A stretch of DNA of 12,491 nucleotides. It comes from a bacterium (GTDB lineage Bacteria > NPL-UPA2 > JAUVJM01). A program made the translations under genes and the position numbers. The stretch spans positions 1-12,491 of the forward strand of contig JAUWGW010000030.1 in NCBI GenBank assembly GCA_030606215.1. The letters are read 5' to 3'. The notes beneath the pieces were generated by a model. It did not search any database and was not told where the DNA came from. It was given only the letters and a program-made list of their open reading frames with translations. Of the stretch, positions 2,786-12,491 are shown piece after piece (position 1 is the first letter of the stretch; the number at the start of each line of letters is the position of its first letter).

Positions 2786-3783
2786 TGGGAGTTATGCGTG
2801 CAGTAGGGCTTTTTTCAGGAGGGCTTGATAGTTCCCTGGCTATATGTATGGTAAGGGATATGGGGATAGATGTGTCCGCTCTCCATTTTTATGCAGGGTT
2901 TCGTCCCGGAGTTAACGGCGCTGAAAGTAAGAAAGAGATTTTGGGTTCAGGGAAAGAGTTAGGTCTTGATGTTCAGATACTGGATATTTCCCGGGAACTT
3001 CTCAACTGTGTCTTACATCCACATTTTGGATATGGTTCGGGGATGAATCCATGCCTTGATTGTCGTCTTCTCATGTTGAGGAAAGCAGGAAGGTTTATGA
3101 AGGATACAGGTGCAAAATTCATAGTTACAGGGGAGGTTCTTAATCAGCGTCCAATGTCCCAGTACAGGCGTGCCCTTGAAATGCTTGAGGAGGAAAGCGG
3201 TTTGATGGGGCTGATACTCAGACCACTTTCGGGGAAGTTGCTGCCGGAGACAATCCCCGAGAAGGAAGGATGGGTCAGTAGAGAGAAATTACTCGCTATC
3301 CTGGGCAGGTCGCGGAAGGAGCAGATAGCTCTTGCGAGGGAGATGGAAATTACAAAGTATAGTCAGCCAGCCGGTGGATGTCTTCTTACTGACAAGAATT
3401 TCAGCAGGAAGCTTAAGGACCTCATACATTACAGGGGAGAAGTTGATGTGGAGGAGCTTGATATTCTTAAAGTTGGCCGGCATCTTCGTATAAGCCCTGA
3501 TATTAAAATGGTTGTTGGGAGAAACCACACTGAGAATTCTTTTTTAGAGAAATATAAAAGCGGGAGATGGCATCTCAAAACAGTGGATTATAAGGGACCG
3601 CTTGCTCTTCTTGAAGGCGAACCCTCTGAAGAGGAACTGAAATTAGCTTGCGCTATTACGGCAGGATATAGTGACGGGGCAGGAGAGTCTAATCTCAGAG
3701 TATATTGCGAGAGGGATGGTGAGATAACTGAAATCTGTGTTGAGCCGTTGGGGAGAGAAGTTATATCCGGGTGGCTGATATGA
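2785..3783 (+). CDS. ThiI/MnmA-like PP-loop ATPase (probable tRNA thiolation enzyme)
   Basis: A 332-residue N-type PP-loop enzyme. The PP-loop is LFSGGLDSS (9-17). Cys90 and Cys93 in NPCLDCR and Cys199 in SQPAGGCLLTD are candidate sulfur-transfer or metal-binding cysteines. Residues 1-200 resemble the adenylation domain of ThiI/MnmA tRNA sulfurtransferases. The C-terminal part (about 205-332) resembles the RNA-binding domain shared with NFACT/DUF814 proteins (VGRNHTENSFLEKY). This architecture is usually annotated as a tRNA 4-thiouridine synthase-like or MnmA-like protein; the exact nucleoside is not established. ATG 2785 overlaps the queH stop by 1 bp; ATG 2794 is an alternative. Placement after queH supports a role in tRNA modification. 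Stop is TGA. Confidence 0.75.
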   Translation: MGVMRAVGLFSGGLDSSLAICMVRDMGIDVSALHFYAGFRPGVNGAESKKEILGSGKELGLDVQILDISRELLNCVLHPHFGYGSGMNPCLDCRLLMLRKAGRFMKDTGAKFIVTGEVLNQRPMSQYRRALEMLEEESGLMGLILRPLSGKLLPETIPEKEGWVSREKLLAILGRSRKEQIALAREMEITKYSQPAGGCLLTDKNFSRKLKDLIHYRGEVDVEELDILKVGRHLRISPDIKMVVGRNHTENSFLEKYKSGRWHLKTVDYKGPLALLEGEPSEEELKLACAITAGYSDGAGESNLRVYCERDGEITEICVEPLGREVISGWLI

Positions 3784-3825: not shown

Positions 3826-5346
3826 ATGTGCGGAATAGTTGGTTATCTCGGGAAAGGTGATGCAATCAGGATTATTCTTGATGGGCTGCGACGTCTTGAA
3901 TATCGCGGTTATGATTCTGCCGGGGCAGCTGTGCTTCAAGGGAATAAACTTCAAATACGCAGATGCTGCGGGAAGGTGGATGATTTGGCGAGGAAATTAG
4001 AGGAGAATCCTGTCTCCGGCAATGTTGGAATTGGTCATACGCGGTGGGCTACGCACGGAAAACCTTCAGAAGAAAATGCGCATCCACATACAGATTGCGG
4101 AAAAAGTCTTGTAATAGTTCACAATGGGATTATTGAGAACTATATGAGTCTTAAAAGAGAGCTTCTCAGGGAGGGACACATTTTCCGTTCTGAGACTGAT
4201 ACTGAAGTGGTTGCTCACCTTATAGAAAAATATATGAAGGATGATGGTTTTGAGGAAGGGGTCTTGCGGGCATTGAGAAGAGTGAAAGGTTCTTATGCGC
4301 TTTGTGTTATATCAAAATCTTACCCGGGGAAAATTATTGCGGCTCGTTGTGATAGTCCGTTGATTATAGGTATCGCGGATGGAGAAAAGTTTGTTGCCTC
4401 TGATGTGCCTGCAATTATCAGGGAGACGAGGGATGTAATCTATCTTGACGATGGGGAAGTAGGTGTACTGGGAGAAGAATCTGATAGGTTTATTAATCTT
4501 GATGGGAAGAAGCTGCATAAATTGCCGGTCCGAATTACCTGGAATATCGCTGATGCGGAGAAAGGGAACTATCCCCATTTCATGCTGAAGGAAATTCACG
4601 AACAGCCGAGAGCGGTGGAAGATACGATACTTGGAAGAGTAGCTCCGGATATGACAGCTATCCATCTTGAAGAATTTGGGATGCGGAAGAGGGATATTAA
4701 ATCAATCAGAAGAATAGTTATGACAGCATGTGGAACCTCATGGCATGCGGCATTAATCGGGAAATATCTATTTGAAGAACATATTAGGATTCCAGTTGAG
4801 GTGGATTATGCGGCTGAATTTCGTTATCGGGAGCCTCTGGTTGATAAGAATACTCTTGTAATTGTCATCAGCCAGTCCGGAGAGACAGCGGATACTATTG
4901 CGGCAGCAAAAGAGGCGCACAGTAAAGGCGCGCGTATTATTTCAATCTGTAATGTAGTCGGCAGTTCAATCACCAGATTATCCGATGGAATAGTCTATAC
5001 GCGGGCAGGTCCTGAGATAGGGGTTGCTTCCACAAAAGCTTTTACAACACAACTTGTTGTTCTGTATATGATGTCTCTTTTTATAGCTGATAAACTCGGG
5101 AAGTTCTCCGGGGAGGATGTGAAGAAGAAAATAGTTGAGCTTAGAAAAATTCCTCAGAAGATGGAGTTATTACTCAGGAGAGACGACAGAATTAAAGAAA
5201 TAGCAGACAGATTCTATAAAAGCACAAATTTTCTGTATTTAGGGCGCGGCGAAGGATTCCCGATTGCGCTGGAAGGTGCGTTGAAGTTGAAGGAGGTTTC
5301 GTATATCCATGCAGAAGGTTACCCTGCGGCTGAGATGAAACATTGA
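3826..5346 (+). CDS. glmS: GlmS, N-terminal 506 residues (interrupted by in-frame TGA)
   Basis: Glutamine--fructose-6-phosphate aminotransferase makes glucosamine-6-phosphate, the entry to UDP-GlcNAc for peptidoglycan and lipopolysaccharide. MCGIVGYLG gives the N-terminal nucleophile Cys1 of the glutaminase domain, with LRRLEYRGYDSAG and GIGHTRWATHG following (residues 1 to about 220). The isomerase domain has two SIS units, including MTACGTSWHAA and ISQSGETADT. GGGAG at 3810-3814 lies upstream of ATG 3826. The frame stops at TGA 5344-5346 directly after EMKH, whose His matches the sugar-ring-opening His504 of E. coli GlmS. The same frame continues to 5658 with the missing C-terminal residues. 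As written, the truncated product lacks the catalytic Lys (Lys603 in E. coli) and would lack synthase activity. No glmS ribozyme fits the 42-bp upstream gap. Confidence 0.9.
   Translation: MCGIVGYLGKGDAIRIILDGLRRLEYRGYDSAGAAVLQGNKLQIRRCCGKVDDLARKLEENPVSGNVGIGHTRWATHGKPSEENAHPHTDCGKSLVIVHNGIIENYMSLKRELLREGHIFRSETDTEVVAHLIEKYMKDDGFEEGVLRALRRVKGSYALCVISKSYPGKIIAARCDSPLIIGIADGEKFVASDVPAIIRETRDVIYLDDGEVGVLGEESDRFINLDGKKLHKLPVRITWNIADAEKGNYPHFMLKEIHEQPRAVEDTILGRVAPDMTAIHLEEFGMRKRDIKSIRRIVMTACGTSWHAALIGKYLFEEHIRIPVEVDYAAEFRYREPLVDKNTLVIVISQSGETADTIAAAKEAHSKGARIISICNVVGSSITRLSDGIVYTRAGPEIGVASTKAFTTQLVVLYMMSLFIADKLGKFSGEDVKKKIVELRKIPQKMELLLRRDDRIKEIADRFYKSTNFLYLGRGEGFPIALEGALKLKEVSYIHAEGYPAAEMKH
5344..5346 (+). 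other. glmS: In-frame TGA at a conserved Gly codon of glmS
   Basis: The family sequence here is KHGP(I/L)AL; the window reads K-H-stop-P-I-A-L. A single G-to-T change in GGA would create it, and the frame is otherwise undisturbed. The base after the stop is C, the weakest termination context known for UGA. A sequencing error, a recent mutation or readthrough are all possible. Confidence 0.9.
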
Positions 5347-5658
5347 CCGATAGCTTTGATTGATGAGAATATGCCGACTGTTGTGCTTGCATTAAAGGGA
5401 AGAAGATATGAGAAGATAGCAGGGAATGTAGAGGAGATAAAAGCGAGGAATGGAGTTGTCATCGCACTCGCAAGTGAAGGAGATAGAGGGATAAGGCAGA
5501 GGGTGGATGAAGTTATCTACATTCCAAGGATTTCTGCTGAGTTATCACCGATACTTGCAGTAATTCCATTACAACTCCTTGCATACTATATAGCGGCTAA
5601 GAGAGGTTGTCCGATTGACCAGCCGAGAAATTTAGCAAAGAGTGTGACAGTAGAGTGA
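5347..5658 (+). CDS. glmS: GlmS, C-terminal 103 residues (same frame after the TGA)
   Basis: This continues the glmS frame from PIALIDENMP to the diagnostic tail QPRNLAKSVTVE, whose Lys corresponds to the catalytic Lys603 of E. coli GlmS. It covers the last part of the second SIS domain, including PLQLLAYYIAAKRGCPIDQP. The two parts together give 610 codon positions including the stop, against 609 residues in E. coli, so nothing is missing or duplicated. It is not an independent gene: there is no ribosome binding site, and the first in-frame start-like codons are TTG 5356 and ATG 5371. The absence of decay in this part argues that the protein is, or until very recently was, made in full length. 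The gene ends with TGA overlapping the ribD start. Confidence 0.88.
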   Translation, partial: PIALIDENMPTVVLALKGRRYEKIAGNVEEIKARNGVVIALASEGDRGIRQRVDEVIYIPRISAELSPILAVIPLQLLAYYIAAKRGCPIDQPRNLAKSVTVE

Positions 5659-9473: not shown

Positions 9474-10142
9474 TTGTCCTCTTTACCTATTTTAAAGATA
9501 ATTGCCGTCGGGCGGAATCCAAAATTCACATTAATCCGGGTAGTTTTCCTTTGTATATTTTGCTTCCTCCTCTTTAGATTTTTCCTTATTCCGGTACGGG
9601 TTTATGGCGCAAGTATGGAACCCGCATACCAAAATGGCTCAATTAACTTTGTGAATGCAACCGCTTATCTTCTTCATGAGCCTCGGAGGGGAGATGTTGT
9701 TGGAATTGCTATGGCCGGGAGGAGAGTGATGCTCCTCAAACGCATAATAGGGCTTCCAGGTGAGACCGTGGCCTTTCTCTGGGGAACACTTATCATAAAC
9801 GGCAGAAAAATCCCCGAGCCCTATATAAAAACTGACTGTCAATGGACAATGGAAGAAGTGAAGAATGGTCCCGGCGAATATTTCGTTGCGGGTGATAATA
9901 CCCTCTCTACAAAAATCAATTCAGTGATGGTAGCTGTACTCAAAGAAGCTACAACCCTTGCTAAAGAAGCAAACAGAAAAACAGTAATGCCTGAAGATAT
10001 AACTCAAGCTTATAAAAAACATGTTGGCAAAGAACATTTAACCTGGGAAGAAGTTCTTAAACAGATCCTTCGCCAACCACCTGCAGATTTAGGCAAGATA
10101 CCCAAAGGCATTAACGATTATATTGAAAAAAACAGTGGTTAG
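9474..10142 (+). CDS. S26 signal peptidase fused to a histone-fold-like C-terminus (chimeric)
   Basis: Residues 1 to about 147 are an S26 (LepB-like) signal peptidase. Membrane segment about 21-39 is followed by GASMEP with catalytic Ser47, MLLKRIIGLPGET with general base Lys89, and YFVAGDN (136-142). The usual next segment (Arg after GDN, then about 20-30 residues ending near RRIVGK) is missing. From about 148 the protein instead reads LKEATTLAKEANRKTVMPED, then ITQAYKKHVG, which resembles the second and third helices of archaeal-type histone folds (compare RKTxxxEDI). A unique tail, LTWEEVLKQILRQ to GINDYIEKNSG, follows. ATG 9927 (residue 152) could start the second part alone. The start at TTG 9474 is weak and lacks a ribosome binding site. 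The peptidase part is confident; the histone-fold reading is a pattern-based inference. Confidence 0.7.
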   Translation: MSSLPILKIIAVGRNPKFTLIRVVFLCIFCFLLFRFFLIPVRVYGASMEPAYQNGSINFVNATAYLLHEPRRGDVVGIAMAGRRVMLLKRIIGLPGETVAFLWGTLIINGRKIPEPYIKTDCQWTMEEVKNGPGEYFVAGDNTLSTKINSVMVAVLKEATTLAKEANRKTVMPEDITQAYKKHVGKEHLTWEEVLKQILRQPPADLGKIPKGINDYIEKNSG

Positions 10143-10167
10143 TAGTCAGTGACCAGTGGTCAGTAAA
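10133..10167 (+). repeat. Five imperfect heptanucleotide tandem repeats (CAGTGGT)
   Basis: Five consecutive 7-mers: CAGTGGT, TAGTAGT, CAGTGAC, CAGTGGT, CAGTAAA. Units 1 and 4 are identical. The array spans the stop codon of the upstream chimeric gene (TAG 10140-10142) and lies upstream of the HU-like gene. It contains the near-palindrome GACCAGTGGTC (10151-10161). It resembles short heptad repeats known from cyanobacteria and other genomes. Confidence 0.6.
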
Positions 10168-10191
10168 AAGCAAAAAGCTGAGTCAACAAAA

Positions 10192-10407
10192 ATGAACGTG
10201 TCAGAACTCAGTGAAGCCATATCAAGAGAACACGGTCTTTCAAAAGCTCTCTCTAACAGGATCCTGAAAACAGTTCTTAATACCATCCGCAAAGAACTAA
10301 AACAGAATCGCCTGGTCCGCCTCAGAAATTTCGGCACATTCCAAGCACGAAAAGGCCACGGCAAACTAAGAGCCAAATTTGACGACTCCAAAAATTTCTT
10401 TAAGTAG
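10192..10407 (+). CDS. HU/IHF-family DNA-binding protein, short-armed
   Basis: A 71-residue protein, against about 90 for typical HU. Residues 1-45 match the helical dimerisation body (LSEAISREHGLSKALSNRIL), and VRLRNFGTFQARK (43-55) matches the conserved beta-sheet entry. The usual DNA-binding arm with GRNPxTG is absent: after QARK the sequence goes to GHGKLRAKFDDSKNFFK, which looks like the final strand and C-terminal helix. The protein therefore either binds DNA differently or is a reduced variant. ATG 10192 is chosen because homology begins there; GTG 10156 in the heptad repeats is also in frame. No strong ribosome binding site is seen. It lies 49 bp after the histone-fold-like gene end. 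Confidence 0.75.
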   Translation: MNVSELSEAISREHGLSKALSNRILKTVLNTIRKELKQNRLVRLRNFGTFQARKGHGKLRAKFDDSKNFFK

Positions 10408-10441
10408 TCAGCGAGACATAACCATGTTCCTGGAATTTTAG

Positions 10442-10663
10442 TTAAAACTAGTTGAGACCGAAAGGGAGCAAAGGCTAAAGTTGGAGTTTGCTCTATCAAT
10501 TGCATCTATCGCTATTGCTACAGTTGACCTGCTCACGGGAAGTAAAAGGAGCGAAGGAAACGAGACTGCCATTATGGATATTGTATGCGACTTATTCTTC
10601 AGAGACTTAAGCAAAGGAAAAAAACAATTACCCTTCAAGAAACAAGCAATTGGCAGAAGTTAG
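10442..10663 (+). pseudogene. Unrecognised gene fragment
   Basis: An open frame follows a stop at 10439-10441 and reads LKLVETEREQRLKLEFALSI (first 20 residues). A hydrophobic stretch, ASIAIATVDLL, comes next, then NETAIMDIVCDLFFRDLSKG and a Lys-rich end at TAG 10661-10663. Composition looks protein-like (amphipathic helices). There is no ATG or GTG start with a ribosome binding site; TTG 10481 is the only candidate near the beginning. I do not recognise the family. It may be the C-terminal remnant of a larger helical protein whose front was lost in rearrangement, or chance coding. Confidence 0.3.
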
Positions 10664-10712
10664 TAAGAAGATTCAATTAGGCTAAATCTATAGAAGGGAG
10701 GTGAAAAAGAAA

Positions 10713-10901
10713 ATGAGAAAGGCAATAACATCAATGTTTGGTTTCCTATTTGTCTTAGGTCTAATGAGCATAGCTGAGGCTACGCTTAGCGACTTAGGAA
10801 ATGAGATTATGATAAGCCATCTGTATGAAAACGACATTTCAATACAGTTTCTGGACCCACCTGTGGACCTCGCTCTACAGGCGGTGGACTGCTCTGTCTA
10901 G
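10713..10901 (+). CDS. Small secreted protein (possible truncated PEP-CTERM-type gene)
   Basis: A 62-residue product starts at ATG 10713 with a strong ribosome binding site, GGGAGGTG (10696-10703), 9 bp upstream. Residues 1 to about 21 form a signal peptide: MRKAITSMFGFLFVLGLMSI with a likely cleavage near AEA. The mature start ATLSDLGN resembles the opening of secreted or PEP-CTERM proteins that continue with GLIYDxxxxLTWLxD, but that continuation is lost; the rest has no recognised motif and ends at TAG 10899-10901. It may be a decayed 5' end of a larger secreted protein joined to foreign sequence. Its stop overlaps GGAGGA, the ribosome binding site of the next gene, so the two may be co-translated. 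Confidence 0.5.
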   Translation: MRKAITSMFGFLFVLGLMSIAEATLSDLGNEIMISHLYENDISIQFLDPPVDLALQAVDCSV

Positions 10902-10911
10902 GAGGACTGGA

Positions 10912-11310
10912 ATGATTACCCATTACATCATTTCTGACCTGCACTTAGCCAATGGTACCAGGAGAAACGACTTTAAAAAGAATCGCACCAAATTTAAGAG
11001 CTTTCTCCGGATGGTGGAGAAACAAAAAGCCAAGCTAATCATAGCAGGAGATTTTCTTGAACTATTGCAAACTAATCCGGTAGATATCGCCAGGACCTAT
11101 TCTGATATCCTCAACGAACTAATCTCAATCGGCACTAAAATAGTCATCGGTAACCATGACTACTATCTCCACCACTTCCGAAAACTAAACTCAGGCTCCT
11201 GGACATCATCAAAGCCAACTTACGTTGAAGTTAATCACAACGGTCACTGCACCCTAAAATACTGGCCTACCCAATCCCCTGTCAAAAAATCATTTTTAAA
11301 ATACGCATAA
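10912..11310 (+). CDS. Calcineurin-like phosphoesterase, probably C-terminally truncated
   Basis: A 132-residue protein with the first metal-binding motifs of metallophosphoesterases: IISDLHL (6-12, Asp9 and His11), IAGDFLELL (44-52, Asp47) and VIGNHDYY (78-85, Asn81 and His82). The layout resembles UDP-2,3-diacylglucosamine pyrophosphatase-like members. The rest of the family domain (about 80-120 residues with two His motifs, typically ending GHTH) is missing. After GNHD only about 50 residues of unrecognised sequence follow. GGAGGA at 10901-10906 lies 5 bp before ATG 10912. Without the later His ligands the metal site is incomplete, so activity is doubtful. One other frame near 11200 reads LLDIIKANLR before a stop, a possible sign of a frameshift, but this is weak. 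Confidence 0.65.
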   Translation: MITHYIISDLHLANGTRRNDFKKNRTKFKSFLRMVEKQKAKLIIAGDFLELLQTNPVDIARTYSDILNELISIGTKIVIGNHDYYLHHFRKLNSGSWTSSKPTYVEVNHNGHCTLKYWPTQSPVKKSFLKYA

Positions 11311-11315
11311 TTATA

Positions 11316-11346
11316 TTGACAAATAGCCATATCTATGCCATATTAA
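11316..11346 (+). promoter_or_regulatory. Candidate promoter and operator of the toxin-antitoxin unit
   Basis: TTGACA at 11316-11321 is a perfect -35 element. A -10 candidate lies at 11339-11344 (CATATT, 17-bp spacer) or 11341-11346 (TATTAA, 19-bp spacer). The direct repeat GCCATAT occurs at 11326-11332 and 11337-11343, 11 bp apart (one helical turn), with the second copy on the -10. This suits a ribbon-helix-helix antitoxin as repressor. Transcription would begin very close to the toxin start codon. Confidence 0.5.
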
Positions 11347-11350
11347 AAAT

Positions 11351-11638
11351 GTGGATAAGGAGTTTGGCAGTTTTATCTGGGATGTTAAGAAAGGAATAAT
11401 CAATTATTACAAACATGGAGTCAATTTCACCACAGCATCAAAGGCGTTTAAGGACCCAAAGAGAAAAATCTATATTGACTCCAGGCATAGTAAGAAAGAA
11501 GAAAGGTTTTTCTGTGTCGGGAAAGTTGAAGGTAAAATCTTAACAGTTAGATTCATTTACCGTAGAGGCAAGATTCGGATATTTGGTGCTGGCTATTGGA
11601 GGAAAGGAGAAACATATTATGAGAAAGAAACCAGTTGA
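11351..11638 (+). CDS. brnT: BrnT-family (DUF497) toxin
   Basis: A 95-residue protein matching BrnT, a RelE-fold ribonuclease toxin that inhibits translation. Visible motifs are FIWDVKKGIINYYKHGV (8-24, the family's W-D-xxK...KHGV), AFKDP (32-36), DSRHSKKEERFFCVG (43-57) and VRFIYRRGKIRIFGAGYWRK (66-85). Many BrnT proteins have IRIISAR where this one has IRIFGAG, so it belongs to a variant group or lacks one conserved Arg. GTG 11351 has no ribosome binding site, and the predicted transcription start is almost at this codon, so the message may be leaderless. The toxin-first order with a ribbon-helix-helix partner overlapping its 3' end by 20 bp is the standard BrnTA arrangement. Confidence 0.85.
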   Translation: MDKEFGSFIWDVKKGIINYYKHGVNFTTASKAFKDPKRKIYIDSRHSKKEERFFCVGKVEGKILTVRFIYRRGKIRIFGAGYWRKGETYYEKETS

Positions 11639-11861
11639 TCCAAACAAGCCTGTTGGGAAAATGACCAGAGTTGAGGATTTTCTCCCCCCGCCTAGCAAGT
11701 TGGTTGTCCCAGAAAAGACTGTGAAGATCACAATATCTCTGAATGAATCAAGTGTGGCTTTCTTTAAGCACCAGGCGAGAGAACACCACACGAAATATCA
11801 AAAGATGATCCGTGAGCTGGTTGATATATACGCAACACAGTATTCACGGCCTGGCAGATAA
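11619..11861 (+). CDS. brnA: BrnA-like ribbon-helix-helix antitoxin
   Basis: An 80-residue antitoxin. Residues 1-33 are a Pro/Lys-rich N-terminal region (MRKKPVDPNKPVGKMTRVED, FLPPPSKL), probably the toxin-binding part. Residues 34-76 fit a MetJ/Arc/CopG ribbon-helix-helix: strand TVKITISL (34-41), helix NESSVAFFKHQAREH, then helix YQKMIRELVDIYATQY. In classical BrnA the order is similar, with toxin-binding and RHH parts at different ends. ATG 11619 is chosen because GGAGG (11598-11602) and AAGGAG (11604-11609) precede it; the strong site contrasts with the toxin's absent one and would favour antitoxin excess. It probably represses the promoter at 11316-11346 with the toxin. Its stop directly abuts the next gene. 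Confidence 0.8.
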   Translation: MRKKPVDPNKPVGKMTRVEDFLPPPSKLVVPEKTVKITISLNESSVAFFKHQAREHHTKYQKMIRELVDIYATQYSRPGR

Positions 11862-12491
11862 ATGGAATCAACAATGCCTGAAAGAACTAAAGCCTATTTC
11901 AAAAGTCTCGGGACCGGATACAGGTTTGACCCTTACGACGAGAGAGACAAAATCTTTCTTGCCCCGCCCAGGATATTGCCCAAACACATAGATAACAGGG
12001 AAGAATGCACCCCAGTCAGAAACCAGGGGACAGAGGGCAGCTGCACGGGACATGCCATGGTAGCTGTTGCTGAACTGCTCTACTGGAGAAAACTTGGTTT
12101 GCCCCCGGACCTGAGTGAAAGATGGGCTTACGAGAAAGCAAAGCTTCACGATGAATGGGATGGGACAGACTATGAAGGGTCCAGTATAAGGGGCGCGGTC
12201 AAAGCATGGGCAAACGAAGGGATTTGCCCGGAAGAATCCTGGCCGTACAAAGCAAAGAACCCGGGCAAGCCGAAACCCGATGCCGGTGCCAAAGCCGGGG
12301 AATATCCAATTGCCAGATATGAGCGTTGTCTTGGGATAGATCACATCAAACACGCAATACACTACAGGGGTTGTGTTATTGCCGGAGCCAACGTTCATAA
12401 AGGTTGGTTCTCAACCATCGGGAAAGAGATAATCCCGTTCAAACCTGACTATTCCCAGGAAGGCGGACATGCAATAACATTGGTCGGATAC
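11862..12491 (+). CDS. Papain-like (C1) cysteine peptidase, partial at window end
   Basis: The frame is open from ATG 11862 to the window edge, 210 codons. PVRNQGTEGSCTGHAMVAVA (51-70) contains the oxyanion Gln55 and nucleophile Cys61 of C1A peptidases. YEGSSIRGAVKAWANEG and the following CPEESWPY are the usual middle region, and GGHAITLVGY (201-210) supplies catalytic His203. The catalytic Asn (NSWG-type motif) should lie just beyond the window. There is no signal peptide, so the enzyme is probably cytosolic. ATG 11874 is an alternative start. The gene begins on the base after the antitoxin stop, so it is probably in the toxin-antitoxin operon and coupled to it. Its codons are visibly richer in G and C than those of the upstream operon, which suggests a different origin. 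No stop is seen. Confidence 0.85.
   Translation, partial: MESTMPERTKAYFKSLGTGYRFDPYDERDKIFLAPPRILPKHIDNREECTPVRNQGTEGSCTGHAMVAVAELLYWRKLGLPPDLSERWAYEKAKLHDEWDGTDYEGSSIRGAVKAWANEGICPEESWPYKAKNPGKPKPDAGAKAGEYPIARYERCLGIDHIKHAIHYRGCVIAGANVHKGWFSTIGKEIIPFKPDYSQEGGHAITLVGY

Follow-up and report, generated by a model that had tools for sequence, protein, structure and literature searches.

IHF histones were described by Schwab et al. (2024; PMC11390915), to whom 19 UniProt sequences were known, from Omnitrophota, Wallbacteria, CG03, and Elusimicrobiota, and who reported a C-terminal tail with two helices that dimerize. In the published cluster, a topoisomerase VI (TopoVI)-like gene, the IHF histone, and an IHF-like gene lie together, and the presence of a TopoVI-like gene near the histone was not stated to be universal (PMC11390915). 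The bacterial dimer histones are members of the alpha3-truncated family and form single-gene units (PMC11390915). Both the IHF-histone class and its gene neighborhood are therefore already in the literature, and our literature search found no later paper on IHF histones. Here we describe a locus in which the 3' part of an IHF-histone gene continues, in frame, the 5' part of a signal peptidase gene. The window, the whole 12,491-nucleotide stretch of DNA that was analyzed, is an entire contig (C14) of a 1.52 Mb genome in 34 contigs that is 93% complete.

A signal peptidase fragment in frame with a histone fragment

The fused open reading frame occupies positions 9474-10142 of the plus strand, starts with TTG, and encodes 222 amino acids without internal stops. 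It and its downstream neighbors comprise the following features:

9474..9899, plus strand: S26 signal peptidase gene, 5' part encoding residues 1-142 (PF10502, E 1.2e-23; TIGR02227), 3' end missing
9897..9902, plus strand: junction of the two gene pieces, right after the GDN codons, where peptidase homology ends and histone homology begins
9900..10142, plus strand: 3' part of an IHF-histone gene (46% identity to relative L023, 15-sequence alignment, profile matches to histones in the PDB)
10192..10407, plus strand: IHF-like gene of the HU/IHF family, frame intact (PF00216, E 1.1e-11, profile positions 1-58 of 90)
11351..11638, plus strand: BrnT-type toxin gene (PF04365, E 1.6e-18)
11583..11861, plus strand: BrnA-like antitoxin gene (PF14384, E 0.00096, below cut-off)

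An earlier note on this DNA had described an S26 peptidase that keeps Ser47 and Lys89 and has nothing after GDN, and this description is accurate: both residues of the dyad are present, and the profile matches stop early, for Peptidase_S26 (Pfam PF10502; residues 21-143, E 1.2e-23) at profile position 142 of 168 and for TIGR02227 at position 133 of 162. Hydrophobicity places a single N-terminal transmembrane segment within about residues 15-46. The peptidase part is 61, 57, and 54% identical to complete homologues in three genomes (G001, G005, and G003, respectively), in which the protein runs on after GDN for 22-35 residues with the pattern R.MP...GRV.R..I.G..LF; the window instead reads GDN-TLSTKINS, and homology to the peptidase family ends at GDN. 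The G001 homologue shares the ribH-nusB-peptidase order of the window, and those of G005 and G003 have gene settings that differ from it. In all three genomes the peptidase is followed by a homologous gene, the G001 copy of which is SnoaL-like by Pfam; no SnoaL-like gene was found in the window's own genome (93% complete), which does carry, on contig C22, another S26 gene that is complete. The TTG start at 9474 has no clear ribosome-binding site.

Residues 143-222 correspond to the C-terminal two thirds of an IHF histone, comprising most of alpha2, L2, alpha3, and the C-terminal tail, and lack alpha1, L1, the sprocket arginine, and early alpha2, all of which are present in full-length aligned family members. 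The L2 loop carries RKTVMPED (RxTxxxxD), and the residues of the retained part that are invariant in the family are kept, namely the R, T, and D of this motif and the DL of the tail, which aligns with the family over its length. The earlier note had likened the segment to the L2 loop and third helix of archaeal histones, correctly, and had suggested profile searches and a look for a stand-alone or longer gene in related genomes. Among curated models, the 81-residue segment gives marginal matches to Histone (PF00125), where 1.4e-5 falls narrowly below the cut-off, and to CBFD_NFYB_HMF, where 1.2e-4 narrowly exceeds it, and a weak one in a single-sequence search of the PDB (HMfA, 0.19). A full-length relative of 116 amino acids is encoded on a contig of an Elusimicrobia metagenome-assembled genome (L023; 46% identity, E 9e-24), a genome of the window's own phylum encodes a more distant one (L002), and 12 of 340 Elusimicrobiota genomes have a match at E up to 0.001. 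A family profile, built from a 15-row alignment (A5) once further relatives had come from Elusimicrobiota, matches PDB histones of archaea, eukaryotes, and bacteria. Given the full-length homologue, a homologous next gene, and a family profile that finds PDB histones, the histone homology is not due to chance, and by sequence comparison the window segment is an IHF histone. The assignment of L023 itself to this class rests on its match to the published description in motif, tail, and IHF-like and TopoVI-like neighbors. A single-sequence AlphaFold2 model of the fused frame was poor (pLDDT 47) and did not resolve the structure of the tail.

The switch from one gene to the other is in frame, as had been claimed; its position, put earlier at about 9912, lies slightly upstream at about 9899/9900, because the peptidase relatives continue past GDN whereas the window departs from the family there, and IHF-histone homology starts within the next residues. 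The homologues show the two halves to be parts of two different genes, each of them whole and separate in relatives and each with neighbors of its own, which supports the note's option of a recombination or assembly junction.

Two observations concern the rest of the window. The protein encoded at 162-1103 ends in a PEP-CTERM-like sorting signal (IPEPASVLLLGAGLVGLFCFSRRKK). In the glmS frame (3826-5658), an in-frame TGA at 5344-5346 replaces the glycine of KHGPIALID (KH-stop-PIALID); since ribH in the window ends in TGA, this codon is a stop here, and the glmS TGA is either a nonsense mutation or a sequencing error.

The three-gene cassette and its relics

Intact cassettes of a TopoVI-like gene, an IHF histone, and an IHF-like gene occur in a genome of the same phylum (G008) and in eight Elusimicrobiota genomes. 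The order of a conserved protein of 340-370 amino acids, the histone, and an HU/IHF-family protein recurs in L023, L002, and ten further loci from seven Elusimicrobiota genomes (L108-L113, L115, and L119-L121). The TopoVI-like gene was not found in the window or its own genome by a query that did find the G008 copy. Its name comes from Schwab et al. and from motifs read by eye (RTFWY/RTYWY, EK, and DYD); sequence and profile searches of the protein against the PDB, Pfam, and NCBIfam gave nothing convincing, and a single-sequence model was poor (pLDDT 37).

The earlier note was silent on the IHF-like partner as the next gene and on the fact that this class of histone had already been described. 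The IHF-like frame in the window, for which a longer GTG-started version opens at 10156, encodes a protein 70% identical to the L023 partner. IHF-like proteins of about 71 amino acids that lack the DNA-binding beta-arm region are encoded in the window (10192-10407), L023 (5250-5465), and L114 (944-1159), and all three end alike in KLRAKF(D/N)DSKNFFK; the region is kept in the L002 copy and in those of the remaining Elusimicrobiota loci. Because the beta arm is absent, DNA bending of the IHF kind would not be expected of the arm-less form. The IHF-like gene of the window may still be used. At another locus (L109:1468-2160), the frame of an IHF histone continues into an entire HU/IHF domain (PF00216, residues 129-214, E 1.8e-15), and a second HU gene follows. 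Given the conserved gene order and this natural histone-HU fusion, the intact trio is most likely to be a module whose members shape DNA together around a TopoVI-A-like enzyme.

Genes resembling toxin-antitoxin pairs are located next to or within the cassettes of the window (11351-11861), L023 (3145-3722), L114 (270-893), and L002 (250-1113). They include BrnT with BrnA or CopG, a HicB-type gene between the histone and IHF-like genes, and PIN with RHH; the BrnT gene beside the L023 cassette lies at 3145-3420 (E 1.2e-8). The BrnA-like antitoxin in the window probably starts downstream of the TTG at 11583.

Truncated cassettes are found elsewhere. In the Elusimicrobiota genome G511, at a mid-contig position, unrelated sequence adjoins a histone frame that opens inside alpha2, and in another (G537) the frame opens near the D of RxTxxxxD and the tail is changed; in both, the IHF-like gene is whole and an adjacent TopoVI-like gene is absent. 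L114, in which the histone runs off the contig start, was left out of this count. In the window's own genome, contig C1 (48601-48672; about 1488-1559 of L103) retains the final 23 codons of an IHF-like gene as a relic. It is the nearest DNA relative there of the right part of the window (86% over 59 bases) and suggests that the cassette is native to this genome and is decaying in it.

As far as we have checked, the truncated relics, the L109 histone-HU fusion, and the arm-less IHF-like form of the window, L023, and L114 are new. Further loci are thereby added to a rare and unexplained class of histones. Decay of the three-gene cassette proceeds by 5' truncation and leaves the IHF-like gene whole, a pattern relevant to the question of which component is useful alone, and the intact cassettes together with the histone-HU/IHF fusion make the proposed partnership of histone, IHF-like, and TopoVI-like proteins testable.

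Origin of the join

We think it probable that the fused frame is the scar of a deletion or recombination event in a decaying histone cassette. Such an event would have joined, in frame, the 5' part of the nusB-linked S26 gene, one of the organism's two, to the 3' two thirds of the IHF-histone gene. The intact ancestor would probably have been a DNA-organizing module in which an IHF-histone dimer and the IHF-like protein worked beside a TopoVI-A-like enzyme for DNA cleavage or strand passage. The TopoVI-like gene, the front of the histone, the 3' end of the peptidase, and the SnoaL-like gene would all have been lost, and the remaining relic would hold only the IHF-like gene whole. From the sequence data we infer that the join exists in the cell's DNA, and a real deletion appears more probable than an artefact because the other halves are missing from the bin, a relic sits on C1 of the same genome, and like damage is seen in other genomes. 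Against a scar, the frame is uninterrupted and the histone segment retains the residues typical of the family, which one would not expect of an old dead gene; if the frame is a scar, then it is a recent one. Any chimeric product would sit in the membrane, its catalytic domain incomplete and outside the cytoplasm and its histone remnant unable to form a normal handshake dimer or to reach DNA, and peptidase activity would come from the complete gene on C22. We expect no function of the chimera, because the peptidase domain and the histone fold are both incomplete, its location would be extracytoplasmic, and a second complete S26 gene is present. We also rejected the idea that the cassette had inserted into the peptidase gene, as no peptidase 3' end is seen downstream of the cassette within the window; and no relative among viral contigs, phages, or plasmids, and no evidence for a virus or plasmid home, was found.

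The main competitor, which we regard as possible but distinctly less likely, is an assembly chimera in which two loci or organisms were joined at about 9900, the peptidase gene and the cassette both being intact elsewhere in the real genome. The join does lie between two unrelated genes, the bin is 93% complete in 34 contigs, and many contig ends share overlaps of about 140 bases typical of graph assembly, with the assembly fragmented at repeats. Near the join, GC skew also drops from about +0.27 to roughly 0, as would be the case wherever two regions meet, whether in the cell or through an artefact. However, the severed halves are absent from the bin, including its contig ends, these ends have no sequence in common with the surroundings of the join, and no repeat was found at the join. 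Tetranucleotide usage of 9900-12491 also fits the genome (0.77; 0.70-0.83 for pieces of the left part), a measure that does not separate this genome from one of the same phylum. The C1 relic, which matches this gene end at 86% identity, and the comparable truncations in other genomes likewise speak against a chimera.

The proposal of a membrane-anchored histone fusion fares much worse. An S26 peptidase with one N-terminal transmembrane segment has its C-terminal side outside the cytoplasm, away from DNA, so that the histone part, which lacks alpha1, L1, and the start of alpha2, would also be in the wrong compartment. The open reading frame, the catalytic serine and lysine, and the conserved tail residues would suit a functional signal peptidase with a histone-derived tail, whose C-terminal helices might dimerize it, but both domains are incomplete and the fusion is seen in one genome only; we consider it very improbable. 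We give as little credence to the specific scenario in which expression of the fused gene yields a membrane peptidase and its tail brings two copies together or binds partners on the extracytoplasmic side, which, if true, would be a new use of a histone-fold remnant. Least likely of all is a separate small histone-fold protein starting at ATG 9927: the ATG exists and the downstream IHF-like gene is whole, but this codon is residue 152, inside alpha2, has no Shine-Dalgarno-like sequence upstream, and would give a product without alpha1, L1, and half of alpha2.

Comparison with known systems

With the type I signal peptidases (S26, TIGR02227), the fused frame shares the N-terminal transmembrane segment, the Ser47/Lys89 dyad, and the motifs up to GDN; it differs in lacking the last 22-35 residues, so that the catalytic domain is incomplete beyond GDN, and in starting with TTG where the aligned relatives have ATG or GTG. 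The bacterial dimer histones (HBb/Bd0055) resemble its histone part in sequence, the family profile matching PDB entries 8cmp and 8fvx at about 2e-4, and likewise place a histone fold in bacteria, but they have no IHF-like partner gene. With the IHF histones (PMC11390915), whose reported hosts include Elusimicrobiota, the fused frame has in common the RxTxxxxD motif, a tail after the fold, and an IHF-like gene directly downstream; intact relatives have the TopoVI-like gene upstream. The window copy, in contrast, is fused to part of a peptidase and is without alpha1, L1, the sprocket arginine, early alpha2, and the TopoVI-like gene.
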